Shown here: one piece after another, positions 35,738-40,873 of the stretch
Position numbering within the stretch: the first letter of the stretch is position 1
How the letters are laid out: each line of letters begins with the position of its first letter
Source of the DNA: Sphingopyxis soli
Lineage (GTDB): Bacteria; Pseudomonadota; Alphaproteobacteria; Sphingomonadales; Sphingomonadaceae
Direction of reading: 5' to 3'
NCBI RefSeq assembly: GCF_018682675.1
Contig: NZ_JAFMTR010000020.1
Coordinates: 1 to 64,000 of the forward strand
Length of the DNA: 64,000 nt
Notes under the pieces: generated by a model
What the model saw: only the letters and a program-made list of their open reading frames with translations
Told to the model about the DNA's origin: nothing
Database searches by the model: none
Made by a program: the position numbers and the translations under genes

Positions 35738-35846
35738 CGGCGGACTCCTTGGGCGATGCGCCTACATAGGGGGCGCATCGCGTCAGGGGAATCCTGTTCG
35801 ATCGCCTGCGTGTATTATTCGAGTAAAACCCTCTTGCCAAAGCCGC

Positions 35847-35876
35847 GCTACAAATGTAGCACGCTACAAATGTAGC
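35847..35876. promoter_or_regulatory. Two tandem BlaI/MecI-type operators
   Basis: GCTACAAATGTAGC occurs twice, at 35847-35860 and 35863-35876, as direct copies with a 16-base period. Each is a near-palindrome with the TACA/TGTA half-sites recognised by BlaI and MecI repressors. They lie immediately before blaI and next to a TTGCCA -35-like box (35834-35839), so they probably cover the promoter of the operon below. Confidence 0.85.
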
Positions 35877-35892
35877 GCATGAGGTGATTCGA

Positions 35893-36270
35893 ATGCTGTC
35901 GAGCCTGCCCCCTCGCGAACGCGAGATCGTCGATATTCTCTATGAGCGCGGCGCCTCGACGGTGACCGAGATCGGCGAGGCGCTGACCGACGAGCTGTCG
36001 GGCTCGGCGATTCGTGCGATGCTGAAGCGGCTCGAGGTCAAGGGCTTTGTGGCGCGCGAGGCGACCGAGCGCGGCTTCGTCTATGCGCCGAGTGTGTCGG
36101 ACAAGGCGGCGCGCAAGTCGGCGCTGAGCCAGGTCGTGCGCGTTTTCTTCAACGGATCGGCGACGAGCGCCGCTGCGGCGCTGCTCGGTATGCAGGACGA
36201 AATGACGGGCGCCGATCTCGACGAACTTGAAAAGATGATCGCAAAAGCCCGCGACGGGAGGATGAAATGA
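35893..36270 (+). CDS. BlaI/MecI/CopY family repressor
   Basis: A 125-residue winged-helix repressor, beginning MLSSLPPREREIVDILYERG and including TVTEIGEAL, GSAIRAMLKRLEVKGFVARE and a C-terminal dimerisation helix. In known systems a BlaR1-type membrane protease triggers its cleavage and derepression. The ATG at 35893 has GAGGTG upstream; a GTG at 35884 is an alternative. It overlaps the M56 gene by ATGA (36267-36270). Two matching operators lie just upstream, so it probably represses its own operon. Confidence 0.92.
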   Translation: MLSSLPPREREIVDILYERGASTVTEIGEALTDELSGSAIRAMLKRLEVKGFVAREATERGFVYAPSVSDKAARKSALSQVVRVFFNGSATSAAAALLGMQDEMTGADLDELEKMIAKARDGRMK

Positions 36271-37940
36271 CTACGAGCGCCATGCTGCTGGGCCTTGCCT
36301 GGAAATCGCTGGTGATTGCGGGACTCACGCTCGTCGTGCTGCGGCTCGCGCGGTCGCGCTCGGCGGGCGAGCGCTCGATGGTCGCGCATGCGGGGCTCGC
36401 GGCGCTGCTCGCGCTTCCCGCTGCGATCCTTTTTCTGCCGAAATGGGCACCGCTGCCGCAGCATTGGTTTGCCGGCGATGCGCCCGTCGCGGCGATGGTT
36501 TCAGGAGTTCCGGCCGCCGATCCGGGCCCCGTCGCGATGCCGGTCCCGGCCGCGATCGAGGCTGCGGGCTCGGCGCCGGTGACCTTTCCCGCTCTCGCCG
36601 ATATCGCGCCCTTTCTCTATCTCGTTCCGCTCGCGCTGCTGTGCGGAATGATGCTGCTTGCGGTCGTGCGGCTGTTCGCGATGCGCCGCCGCGCAGAAAT
36701 CCTCGTCGAGGGATCGTGGCTGTCGGCGCTTGCCGAGGCGCAGCGGCGCATGGGGTTCAAGCATGGCACCGCGTTGCTGGTGAGCGAGGAACTGCGCTCA
36801 CCGATCAGCTGGGGTGTGCTGCGCCCGACAATCGTGCTCAACCCGCGCGCGGTCGATGCGGTCGACGAGGCGGAAGCGATCATCGCGCACGAACTGGCGC
36901 ATGTCGCACGGCTCGACTGGGCGAAGCTGCTCGGCGCGCGGATCGCCTGCGCGGTCTTCTGGTTCAACCCGCTGGTGTGGATGCTCGCGCGTGAAAGCCA
37001 CCAGCTGCGCGAGGAGGCGGCCGACGATGCCGTGCTGATGGCCGACATCGACGGGCCCGACTATGCGACCCTGCTCGTCGGCGCGGCGCGCCATGACAAT
37101 CAGGGGGCGCTGCTGGCCGCGCATGGCGTCGCGCCAGGCAGGAACAGCCTGAAGCGCAGAATCACACGCGTGCTCGATGCCAGCCTGAAGCGCGGACCAG
37201 CGAGCGCGGGCTGGATGCTGACGAGCCTGGTCGTGCTCGCCGGTGTCGCCGCGCCGCTCGCCGCCTTTTCGGCAACCGCAGATAAAAAGGCGGCGCCGGA
37301 GATCCCCGCTCCCGCCGCCGCCACCGCCCCGGCCGCGACGCAGCAGGTCGCCGCGGCCGCGGGCGGGGCCCATCATGCCGGAGAGGCCGCTGCCGATCCG
37401 TCGCGGCCGCTGAGCGCCGACGAACTGATCGGTATGCGTGCGGTCGGCGTCACGCCCGAATATGCGGCCGAGATGCGCGAGCATAACGGCCCGATGACCG
37501 CCGACGCCATCATCGGCGCCAAGGCGACCGGCGTCGACCCCGCCTATATCAGGAAAATGCGCGGCCTCTTCCCCGGCGTCAGCCTCGACGATCTGGTGGG
37601 CGCGTCGGCGCTGCACATCGAACCCGCCTTCGCCCGCGACATGAAGACGCATTTCCCCGACATCGGCATCGACGATGTGATCGCGCTGAAGGCGATGGGG
37701 GTCGACTGCGACTTTGTAACCGACATGCGCAAGGCGGGGGTGCGCATCCGCAGCGCCGACGATGCGATCGAACTGCGCGCGACGGGCGGATGGGCGAGCG
37801 CGACGGGCCGCAAGGGCGATAAGGGCGCGACCGTCCGGCTCGGCCCCGGCGCGGTGGTCGAGGCGCGCGGCGCCGATGGTCGCGTGACGCGCATCGAGGT
37901 TCCCGAGCCCCCCGAACCGCCGGAACCGCCCGCGACCTGA
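36267..37940 (+). CDS. M56 (BlaR1-like) membrane metalloprotease with periplasmic repeats
   Basis: A 557-residue integral membrane protease. Helices near residues 8-25, 45-55 and 112-132 precede a cytosolic zinc-peptidase domain with AIIAHELAHVARLDW (H208, E209, H212) and a further acidic ligand motif LREEAADDAVL; a fourth helix (MLTSLVVLAGVAAPLAAF) leads to a periplasmic tail. Unlike BlaR1, the tail has no penicillin-binding domain. It has four repeats of about 28 residues (382-493) of the type DELIGMRAVGVTPEYAAEMR, then a degenerate fifth and a proline-rich end. It should cleave or trigger cleavage of BlaI when the tail senses a signal. Confidence 0.9.
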   Translation: MTTSAMLLGLAWKSLVIAGLTLVVLRLARSRSAGERSMVAHAGLAALLALPAAILFLPKWAPLPQHWFAGDAPVAAMVSGVPAADPGPVAMPVPAAIEAAGSAPVTFPALADIAPFLYLVPLALLCGMMLLAVVRLFAMRRRAEILVEGSWLSALAEAQRRMGFKHGTALLVSEELRSPISWGVLRPTIVLNPRAVDAVDEAEAIIAHELAHVARLDWAKLLGARIACAVFWFNPLVWMLARESHQLREEAADDAVLMADIDGPDYATLLVGAARHDNQGALLAAHGVAPGRNSLKRRITRVLDASLKRGPASAGWMLTSLVVLAGVAAPLAAFSATADKKAAPEIPAPAAATAPAATQQVAAAAGGAHHAGEAAADPSRPLSADELIGMRAVGVTPEYAAEMREHNGPMTADAIIGAKATGVDPAYIRKMRGLFPGVSLDDLVGASALHIEPAFARDMKTHFPDIGIDDVIALKAMGVDCDFVTDMRKAGVRIRSADDAIELRATGGWASATGRKGDKGATVRLGPGAVVEARGADGRVTRIEVPEPPEPPEPPAT

Positions 37941-38045
37941 CGTTCGTCCAAACGCAGCTTCCGTTGATCGAACCCCTGTTTTGAAATGCCGTTGCGGCGG
38001 CGAGCGATGACGCTCGTCCGGCGCACGGAGGGAGGAGTGCACCCC

Positions 38046-38783
38046 ATGAAAATCCCGATGACGCTTGCCGGCGCCGCTTTGCTGTCGGTTCTCGCCTGCG
38101 CTGCGCCGAGCACGGCAGCCGATCCGCTGGTGCTGAGCGATATTGCCTGGCGCGCGGAGCCGACGCCGTCCGATGGCGCGCCGCGGCTGCGCGTCAGCCG
38201 CAAGACATCGAGCAGCGATGTCGTGATCGACGGAATACGGAACGAATTGGCGGGCGCAAGGGCCGCGCTGGGTCGCGGAGCGGGTCCGACAGGTTTCGCC
38301 ATCGTCCATGAGGCGGGAACCCTCGCCTGTTCGGGGCGGCTGACCGGCGCCTTCGACGGACAGGGCGATTGCCGCTTCACCGCCGACCCCGGGTTCGAAA
38401 GGGCGCTGGACCAGCGCGGCCTCGCCCCCGCCAACCGGGGCGACCTGCTGGCGATGCTGCTGGTCGATGCCACCGTCGAACTCGCCGACGGGCTGACGCG
38501 CGAAGGTGTGAAGCCGAAAGACAATGGCGACCTGATCGCCGCCGCGGCGCTTGGCGTCACGCCGGCCTATGTTCGCGACCTTCGATCGGAGGCGCTGGTG
38601 CTGGCCAGCGTCGAGGATGCGATCGCGTGCAAGGCGCTCGGCGTCGACGGCGCCTATGTGCGCGGGCTGGCCGACGCCGGATACCGGAAACTCGCGGCCG
38701 AGGAGGTCGTCGGAATGAAGGCGATGGACGTGTCCCCCGAATATGCCCGGGCGATGAACCGCGCGGCGCGGGGTGGCCAGTGA
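38046..38783 (+). CDS. Secreted protein sharing the M56 tail repeats
   Basis: A 245-residue exported protein with signal peptide MKIPMTLAGAALLSVLACAA (then PSTA). Residues about 25-155 are an unrecognised domain. Residues about 158-245 are three repeats of about 29 residues such as DLIAAAALGVTPAYVRDLR, DAIACKALGVDGAYVRGLA and EVVGMKAMDVSPEYARAM, clearly related to those in the preceding protease. A GGAGG precedes the ATG. It lies 105 bases after the protease gene and overlaps the receptor gene start at 38780. A role as soluble partner or decoy for the protease sensor tail is inference. Confidence 0.8.
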   Translation: MKIPMTLAGAALLSVLACAAPSTAADPLVLSDIAWRAEPTPSDGAPRLRVSRKTSSSDVVIDGIRNELAGARAALGRGAGPTGFAIVHEAGTLACSGRLTGAFDGQGDCRFTADPGFERALDQRGLAPANRGDLLAMLLVDATVELADGLTREGVKPKDNGDLIAAAALGVTPAYVRDLRSEALVLASVEDAIACKALGVDGAYVRGLADAGYRKLAAEEVVGMKAMDVSPEYARAMNRAARGGQ

Positions 38784-40873
38784 AGTCGACGATCAGTCTT
38801 TCGGCCATCGCCGCCGCTCTGTCGGCCTCGCCCGTCGCGGCACAGGATGCCGCCGTCGCCGGCGATGCCCCGCCGCCGGTTGCCGCTCCCGCGGGTGCGC
38901 CGGGCACGGCGCGGCAGGTGTTCGCACCCGCCGACTTCGCCCGCTACGCGCCGAAGAACGCCTATGACATGCTCGTGCAGGTTCCGGGCTTCTCGATCCG
39001 CGATAACGAGAATTTGCGCGGACTGGGGCAGGCCACCGGCAACGTCCTGTTCAACGGCGAGCGGCCGTCGAACAAGGCCGACGACATGTACACCCAGCTG
39101 TCGCGCATCCCGGCCGAGAATGTCGAGCGGATCGAGATCGTCGACGGCGCGACGCTCGACATCCCCGGACTGTCGGGGCAGGTCGCCAATATCGTCTATC
39201 GCGCCGACAGCATTTCGGGCCAGTTCTCGTGGAAGCCCGAGTTTCGCGCCCACTATACCGATGCGCTGTTCACCCGCGCCGACGTTTCGGTGCGCGGCCG
39301 GTCGGGGCAGATCGAATATGAGGCGGCGCTGAGCAATGACGACTCCGCACGCAGCGGCGCGGGCGGGCCGACGCTGATCTACGACGGCGCGGGAAATATC
39401 ATCGAGCGGCGCGAGGACAGCTGGAACACGCATTACGACACGCCGAAGCTGTCGGGGCGCATCACCTGGGATCCGCCGGGCGATACGGTCGCCAATCTGG
39501 GCGGTCATTATCAGCGCAAATATGACCGCTATTTTGAGGATGGCGTGCGGACGAGCCCCGGAACGGCCGACCGCATCCGCACCGTCTATGAAAATGCCGA
39601 CAGCTGGAATTACGAGGTGTCGGGCGATTACCAGTTCGGTTTCGGGCCGGGCAGGCTGAAACTGATCGGGCTGCGGCGGTTCAGCCACGAGCCTTACAAG
39701 CAGGAGATCGTCACGACGCCGGTGGGCGGCATCGCGACCGGCGACCGCTTCGCGCAGACCGGCGACCTTGGCGAGACGATCGCGCGCGGCGAATATCAGT
39801 GGAAGCTGTTCGGCGGCGACTGGCAGATGTCGGGCGAGGCGGCGTTCAACACGCTCGACAATGTCGCGTCGATCGCGGTGCTCGATCCGTCGGGCGCGTG
39901 GGTCGACCAGCCGTTCGACGGCGGCACCGGCGGCGTCAGCGAGGACCGCTACGAAGGCCTGCTGAGCTTCGGGCGCAAGCTGACCGACAAGCTGACCGTC
40001 CAGATCATCGCCGGGGCCGAACATTCGACGATCACCCAGACGGGCGCCAATGGGCTGACGCGCAGCTTCTTTCGCCCGAAGGGGTCGTTGACGCTCGCCT
40101 GGGCGCCGTCGGCCGATTTCGACGCGTCGCTGAAGATCCGCCGGCGGGTGCTCCAGCTCAGCTTCTATGACTTCCTCGCGCGCGCCTTCCTCAACGACGG
40201 GAACGAGAATCAGAGCAACAACGACCTGAGGCCGCAGCAGGACTGGAGCTATGAACTCGAGATCAACAAGAAGCTGGGCGCCTGGGGTTCGACCAAGCTC
40301 TATCTCGTCTTTCGCGACGTCGAGGACCGCGTCGATGTCGTACCCGTCGGCACGAACGGCGGCGAAGGCGTCGGCAATATCGCGAAGGCGAAGGCGGGCG
40401 CGATCGAGTGGTCGTCGACGATCAATCTCGATCCCGCCGGGATCAAGGGGATGAAGGTCGAGTCGAGCGTGCTGTTCCAGAAAAGCTCGCTGCGCGACCC
40501 CTTCACCGGCGACAAGCGCCAGTGGAGCGGCTTCACCGATCGCGTCGTCGACGTCAGCGTGCGCCACGATATTCCCGGCAGCGACTGGGCGTGGGGCGTC
40601 GGCGCCAATTGTTCGCACTACCAGCCCAGTTACCGCCGCAACCAGTCGGACAAGGTGTGGGAAGGGCCGGTGTTCGCGAACGTCTTCGTCGAGCACAAGA
40701 ATGTGATGGGACTGACGGTCCGCGCGCAGATCCGCAACATCGCCAATGCGCGCTCGAAACGCGACCGCACCGTCTATACCGGCGTGCGCGGGCAGAGCCC
40801 GATCGCCTTCGTCGAGGAACGCGACCGGTTGATCGGCCCGATCTTTGCGGTTTCGGTGCGCGGGAACTTCTGA
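38780..40873 (+). CDS. TonB-dependent receptor / outer-membrane beta-barrel protein
   Basis: A 697-residue outer-membrane protein. A signal peptide (KSTISLSAIAAALSASPVAA then Q) is followed by a plug domain (DMLVQVPGFSIRDNENLRGL through ERIEIVDGATLDIPG) and a long beta barrel ending in phenylalanine (VSVRGNF). The TonB box is not obvious, so TonB coupling is less certain than for the receptor at 4535. The GTG start overlaps the preceding stop (GTGA), placing it in the BlaI-controlled operon as the likely output gene. The imported compound is unknown. Confidence 0.88.
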   Translation: MKSTISLSAIAAALSASPVAAQDAAVAGDAPPPVAAPAGAPGTARQVFAPADFARYAPKNAYDMLVQVPGFSIRDNENLRGLGQATGNVLFNGERPSNKADDMYTQLSRIPAENVERIEIVDGATLDIPGLSGQVANIVYRADSISGQFSWKPEFRAHYTDALFTRADVSVRGRSGQIEYEAALSNDDSARSGAGGPTLIYDGAGNIIERREDSWNTHYDTPKLSGRITWDPPGDTVANLGGHYQRKYDRYFEDGVRTSPGTADRIRTVYENADSWNYEVSGDYQFGFGPGRLKLIGLRRFSHEPYKQEIVTTPVGGIATGDRFAQTGDLGETIARGEYQWKLFGGDWQMSGEAAFNTLDNVASIAVLDPSGAWVDQPFDGGTGGVSEDRYEGLLSFGRKLTDKLTVQIIAGAEHSTITQTGANGLTRSFFRPKGSLTLAWAPSADFDASLKIRRRVLQLSFYDFLARAFLNDGNENQSNNDLRPQQDWSYELEINKKLGAWGSTKLYLVFRDVEDRVDVVPVGTNGGEGVGNIAKAKAGAIEWSSTINLDPAGIKGMKVESSVLFQKSSLRDPFTGDKRQWSGFTDRVVDVSVRHDIPGSDWAWGVGANCSHYQPSYRRNQSDKVWEGPVFANVFVEHKNVMGLTVRAQIRNIANARSKRDRTVYTGVRGQSPIAFVEERDRLIGPIFAVSVRGNF

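Follow-up and report, generated by a model that had tools for sequence, protein, structure and literature searches.

What does a BlaR1-like protease sense, and what does it control, when it carries no penicillin-binding domain and lies in an operon with a TonB-dependent receptor? Proteases of the BlaR1 type are best known for sensing beta-lactams, and the question is raised by a locus of Sphingopyxis soli (assembly GCF_018682675.1, contig NZ_JAFMTR010000020.1), of which we analysed positions 1 to 64,000, hereafter the window. Four plus-strand genes at 35893-40873 encode a BlaI-family repressor, an M56 protease, a secreted protein (gene 3) and a TonB-receptor-like protein, and we propose from sequence comparison, with a probability of about 0.75, that they form a BlaR1-like regulated-proteolysis switch that controls the receptor and has a new sensor. 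The features on which this proposal is built are as follows.

35833..35839, plus strand: CTTGCCA element, -35-like, conserved at 90% or more per position in 45 promoters aligned on operator 1
35849..35858, no strand assigned: BlaI-type operator 1, TACAAATGTA, exact match
35865..35874, no strand assigned: BlaI-type operator 2, TACAAATGTA, exact match, 16 bp after operator 1
35893..36270, plus strand: BlaI/MecI-family repressor, 125 amino acids from ATG 35893; Pfam PF03965 (Penicillinase_R), 78.3 bits against a cut-off of 22.6, E 7.5e-22
36267..37940, plus strand: M56 membrane protease, 557 amino acids; Pfam PF05569, 94.9 bits against a cut-off of 31, E 6.7e-27
Protease residues 4-28, 37-63, 105-141 and 311-339: four hydrophobic segments, by hydropathy
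36888..36902, plus strand: HELAH zinc motif, protease residues 208-212, role assigned by homology
Protease residues 248-253: REEAAD, with the likely third zinc ligand, role assigned by homology
37410..37784, plus strand: predicted periplasmic alpha-hairpin repeat domain of the protease, residues 382-506, at the place of the BlaR1 penicillin-binding domain
38046..38783, plus strand: secreted protein (gene 3), 245 amino acids, with a hydrophobic leader by hydropathy, a beta domain at residues 29-113 and alpha-hairpin repeats at residues 133-243
38780..40873, plus strand: TonB-dependent-receptor-like outer-membrane protein, 697 amino acids, whose GTG start overlaps the gene 3 stop

A sequence-only reading of this DNA had proposed two BlaI operators and four genes, all of which are present at the coordinates given, the operators being matched by a pattern scan and BlaI, M56 and the receptor by Pfam, and its ATGA junction at 36267 and GTGA junction at 38780 are correct on re-reading the sequence. 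The intact HELAH it described is present at residue 208, and both HELAH and REEAAD are invariant in 26/26 aligned M56 proteins. Its statement that the protease lacks a penicillin-binding domain and the operon a beta-lactamase also stands: the protease gives no Pfam match to such a domain at E <= 1, and no beta-lactamase or mecA-type gene is found by Pfam among the four operon genes. As to the start of the repressor, an AGGTG Shine-Dalgarno at 35882-35886, kept in the relatives, precedes ATG 35893, which is the likelier start because the upstream GTG 35884, used in the family scans, sits within this Shine-Dalgarno.

What the sequence-only reading did not contain is the nature of the putative sensor. 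After its last membrane segment the protease continues as helical hairpins of about 28 residues, followed by a proline-rich end, and these repeats are, by profile comparison, homologous to those of the secreted protein (hhalign: 98.6%, E 6e-16, 108 columns). In the structural model of the protease, helices at residues 384-506 reach a predicted local distance difference test (pLDDT) score of about 70-92. Taking the topology from BlaR1 and from hydropathy, the zinc site would be cytoplasmic and the repeats periplasmic. Residues 110-309 of the protease align with BlaR1 chains 8exs/8exp (E about 0.001), and a Foldseek search with the protease model gave no match at E <= 0.001. Similar repeats may also occur in M56-linked proteins of other phyla.

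For the secreted protein, neither Pfam nor NCBIfam gave a match at E <= 1. Its AlphaFold model is good (mean pLDDT 88.7), and two cysteines of the beta domain, Cys 95 and Cys 109, are invariant across 28 aligned rows. The model found no PDB match by Foldseek at E <= 0.001; the fold relatives that were considered, the RpfR interaction domain, chemoreceptor ligand-binding domains and, lower, lipocalin-like barrels, were rejected as too weak, since they cover the beta domain only with Z <= 5.5. Because the repeat is common to both proteins, the secreted protein is probably a partner or a competitor of the sensor, and direct binding between the two is the hypothesis that follows from it.

The two operators are palindromic, predicted BlaI sites, and lie between the -35-like element and the Shine-Dalgarno; the CTTGCCA upstream of them we infer to be the -35 element itself. 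When up to one mismatch is allowed, TACAAATGTAG has two matches in the whole window, at 35849 and 35865, both exact, and none of 100 window shuffles contained two. The core TACANNTGTA occurs at four places in the 3.63-Mb genome, against 25 for the pattern read backwards: two at the operon, one before a second BlaI gene (C92:19209) and one at an S41-peptidase gene (C7:12044). The second BlaI gene belongs to the only other BlaI-M56 pair found in the genome by the Pfam profile (L007:4259-6315, site 4210; also seen at L321 and L322); it has a single operator and a protease without marked repeats of the gene 3 type, and in the S. soli genome the gene that follows looks MBL-fold-like by eye. The S41-family peptidase, which is secreted (L008:3876-4994, site 5045; L320, L323), has a single operator just upstream of its gene in all three Sphingopyxis genomes examined, at a distance of about 50 bp in the S. 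soli genome.

Tandem operators are rare in the family, with one occurrence in each of 15 of 397 genomes, against 1/397 for the backwards pattern. Twelve of the 15 precede a BlaI-M56 pair and a receptor, in six Sphingopyxis and six other genomes (in one of the 12, G926, the receptor runs into the contig end), and the tandem site of G896 stands before BlaI, M56 and gene 3, with no receptor within the fetched stretch. The operator and gene arrangement is more than chance. At L316:5065-5093 tandem operators stand next to two genes that by eye resemble those of GIN-domain surface proteins, with no BlaI or M56 in the 10 kb fetched.

Within the genus the arrangement is strongly conserved. The gene 3 profile matched in 48/60 Sphingopyxis genomes, our own included, and in 0/39 others of the order, and in every one of the 48 loci (the window and 47 fetched, several of them cut by contig ends) the genes that are present keep the same order and strand. 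BlaI is found in 45/48 loci, it and the operators missing only in the contig-end-cut L063, L064 and L082, and the receptor in 47/48, missing only in the contig-end-cut L077 and truncated in L047. All 45 loci whose sequence includes the promoter have tandem operators, spaced by 16 bp in 41 of them and by 17 bp in four, and all 45 promoters are alike, with CTTGCCA, both operators and, shortly after, the Shine-Dalgarno. The 4-bp overlap between gene 3 and the receptor is kept in 44/47 loci and the overlap between BlaI and M56 in 38/45, with starts chosen by script. Alignments A1, A3 and A4 took 27, 25 and 25 of the 47 relatives, each with the window added and contig-end-cut loci excluded; a frame-shifted protease, that of L083, was included in A2 and excluded from A3. 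This protease gene of L083 (G055), and that of L197, which lies in two frames, may reflect sequencing error or decay.

The 12 Sphingopyxis genomes without gene 3, eight of which have a completeness of at least 90%, all lack an M56 of the operon type in a profile search whose profile does match in other genomes. An orthologous receptor is found in two of these genomes, only more distant receptors in five, and none in the remaining five.

Outside the genus, the linkage search in sphingomonads proposed by the sequence-only reading found the four genes together not only in Sphingopyxis, but also in some other sphingomonad genera. The receptor scan kept the best 80 of 128 relatives, in a set that overlaps our other genome sets in many genomes, so that the counts are not additive. 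Among these best 80 loci, 36 have BlaI, M56, gene 3 and receptor, five have BlaI, M56 and receptor without gene 3, two show M56 and gene 3 but are cut off upstream, and in 37 no M56 is adjacent; the 43 with M56 come from Sphingopyxis, Sphingomonas, Altererythrobacter, Alteripontixanthobacter, Tsuneonella and records named to higher rank. The five loci without gene 3 are all from named Sphingomonas, which indicates that the arrangement can exist without the secreted repeat protein. Searched by its own profile, gene 3 was found in 14/246 genomes of the order (3/71 genera), in 1/385 of a class sample (our own genome) and in 3/398 of a phylum sample, all from the same family, in searches that scored only part of each genome's candidates, which makes absence weak evidence. 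In another genus of the family (L143-L146), BlaI, M56 and gene 3 are kept and the receptor is present in three of four loci. In Sphingomonas sp. URHD0057 gene 3 is separated from a more distant receptor by a large gene that by eye is TPR/regulator-like (L305:1881-4532).

We also scanned 199 genomes of the family for the protease, scoring at most six candidates per genome, and obtained matches at 1e-15 in 16 of them. A close M56 (E <= 1e-100) stands beside a receptor in 7/7 loci, whereas a receptor of this family was found near a distant M56 in 0/9 loci within the 8.5-11.5 kb fetched; since the 1e-100 threshold was chosen with the result in view and the loci are related to one another, the contrast does not test independent events. 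L178 (G683), with M56 and gene 3, was excluded from the distant set as its contig ends 0.7 kb past gene 3, and L188 and L189, repeat-only matches without M56, were not counted. One of the seven close cases is divergent: at L177:7182 the receptor gene is transcribed away from BlaI-M56 with a single operator between them, and no repeats are marked in that M56.

The receptor itself is recognised by its Plug domain (Pfam PF07715, 37 bits against a cut-off of 23.9), which is present in 26/26 aligned relatives, and the colicin I receptor plug is a hit of its profile (E 4.9e-6). Apart from Plug, Pfam gave no domain at E <= 1, no barrel model matched, and no clear TonB box could be seen by eye.

Further evidence comes from receptors that stand alone. 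In six of the 37 receptor loci without adjacent BlaI/M56, an exact operator lies 31-79 bp before the estimated receptor start, by which these promoters were placed, compared with 4 of 2000 random same-size stretches drawn from the same loci, so that BlaI appears to target the receptor even in trans. In three of the six the sites are in tandem, 16 bp apart and almost identical to the pair of the window, and the three genomes concerned have a close M56 with repeats elsewhere. The sequence-only reading had inferred BlaI/M56 signalling acting on the receptor. Receptor control by BlaI is supported by the kept gene order, by the linkage to close M56 proteins and by these operators; the receptor family is wider than the switch, since the other 31 of the 37 loci have no exact operator.

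The mechanism we suggest would run as follows. BlaI would bind the two palindromic operators and repress its own operon, while M56 would span the inner membrane, with its zinc site on the cytoplasmic side and its repeat solenoid on the periplasmic side. A cue from the periplasm or envelope would act on the solenoid, probably together with the secreted protein of the same repeat, and activate the protease, which by homology to BlaR1 would then cut BlaI (BlaR1 itself is described as cleaving BlaI directly; PMC9834060). Following the same homology, loss of BlaI would derepress BlaI, M56, the secreted partner and the receptor. Tentatively, this may represent a further route of TonB-receptor control, in addition to sigma/anti-sigma surface signalling and two-component systems: the sensor would be formed jointly by the solenoid of a BlaR1-like protease and a secreted solenoid built of the same repeat, and repressor cutting would set the receptor level.

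Several observations weigh against a dedicated switch of this kind. The likeness of the protease to BlaR1 is modest (phmmer E 0.0009), its score with the NCBIfam BlaR1 model NF000326 is 63.1 bits against a cut-off of 400, and its structural model has a mean pLDDT of 54.5, with the repeats as the only usable part. Cross-talk is possible, given that the operator core is also present at the second BlaI-M56 pair. Two of the 15 tandem sites are differently placed, that of G900 at another kind of BlaI-M56 pair and that of G804 beside genes without BlaI or M56. Among the stand-alone receptors, the 31 without an exact operator include five with one-mismatch sites only, and three of the six with an exact operator come from genomes without a close M56 (none at 1e-15 in G807 and G811; 4.7e-16 in G812). 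The receptor tree requires 10 changes of the operon label, which indicates that the linkage was gained or lost repeatedly. This tree holds 71 of the 80 loci (L195, L205, L209, L216, L221, L236, L239, L249 and L256 were excluded, and the loci outside it include two of the three with tandem operators), and in it L217 is labelled solo although a site was found at its estimated start.

If the switch operates as proposed, the nature of its cue is the next question, and two answers fit it. The solenoid may sense the state of the envelope, that is, periplasmic or outer-membrane damage or misassembly rather than a nutrient, with the receptor as one of several envelope proteins being adjusted; this is a possible reading, which we hold with reserve. 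The operator at the S41-family peptidase gene, present in all three genomes, speaks for it, as does the operator core shared with the second BlaI-M56 pair, and in Caulobacter the secreted repeat protein YjbI, of another family, silences envelope-stress pathways that reprogramme the outer membrane via TonB-dependent receptors (PMC12864828). However, the S41 site is single, as is that of the second pair, and may therefore belong to the latter. Alternatively, a ligand imported by the receptor could be sensed in the periplasm by the solenoid or the secreted protein and boost receptor production, as a proteolytic counterpart of Fec-type signalling. Of all partners of the close M56 clade the receptor is the most constant, even where gene 3 is missing, and the operon genes overlap, both of which suit this idea; yet receptors persist in genomes without the switch, the receptor offers no Pfam domain beyond Plug, and neighbour clustering of 43 of the 80 named receptor loci revealed no recurrent metabolic partner in the top 14 groups, which makes sensing of cargo rather doubtful. 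The largest group beyond the operon genes in that clustering is antisense-frame-like by eye and without a Pfam match; a recurrent ABC exporter family is present in 5 of the 43 clustered loci. Because the secreted peptidase gene also has an operator, we lean slightly to the envelope cue over receptor cargo.

Two other explanations dispense with a new signal or with signalling by BlaI cleavage. The protease could still sense beta-lactams or cell-wall fragments, with the receptor a bystander of a resistance-type response, as the family membership of BlaI and M56 would allow and as the peptidoglycan fragment reported to trigger the Bla system of Bacillus licheniformis might suggest (PMC3305447); but the protease lacks a penicillin-binding domain and none of the four genes encodes a beta-lactamase, so that this seems very unlikely. 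We would likewise be surprised if BlaI only autoregulated the operon, with M56 acting on other substrates and no signalling by BlaI cleavage. That BlaI is cut by M56 is deduced from BlaR1, and the receptor linkage changes repeatedly, which both leave room for such a view, but it fits poorly with operators before receptor genes in trans and with the constant pairing of BlaI and M56. The regulated-proteolysis switch with receptor control thus remains the reading that we prefer.

How does such a switch compare with known systems? The BlaR1/MecR1 systems have TACA..TGTA operators, as found at the operon in the window. With BlaR1/MecR1-BlaI/MecI (8exs, 8exp; PMC9834060) it shares its BlaI-family repressor and the build of its M56 protease, which carries HEXXH, has four membrane segments and ends in a periplasmic C-terminal domain, but here the putative sensor is an alpha-hairpin repeat domain instead of a penicillin-binding domain, and the operon would control a secreted repeat protein and a TonB-type receptor, with no beta-lactamase or PBP2a gene. 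Fec-type surface signalling (reviewed in PMC7593790) also ties a TonB-dependent receptor to regulated proteolysis, whereas our operon has a repressor and an M56 protease, no sigma/anti-sigma pair among its four genes and a receptor in which no signalling domain was found. In Caulobacter a secreted repeat protein, YjbI, is likewise tied to TonB-receptor expression, but it is a pentapeptide beta-helix and works with two-component systems, and no BlaI/M56 was seen in the part of PMC12864828 covered. Among the literature matches listed, which covered few subscription papers, there was no description of BlaI-M56 control of a TonB-dependent receptor, and PMC10470040, in the part covered, names such genes only in tables and lists.

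The repressor, the protease family and the operator type are thus known, and it is the sensor domain, the secreted partner and the receptor target that differ from BlaR1/MecR1. The locus is an accessible one in which to ask what signals M56 proteases respond to when these are not beta-lactams and how periplasmic information reaches BlaI-family repressors, and it bears on how bacteria rich in TonB receptors choose which of them to make. Compared with its closest counterpart, it would be a BlaR1 chassis fitted with another sensor and aimed at an outer-membrane receptor, in one compact and conserved operon.

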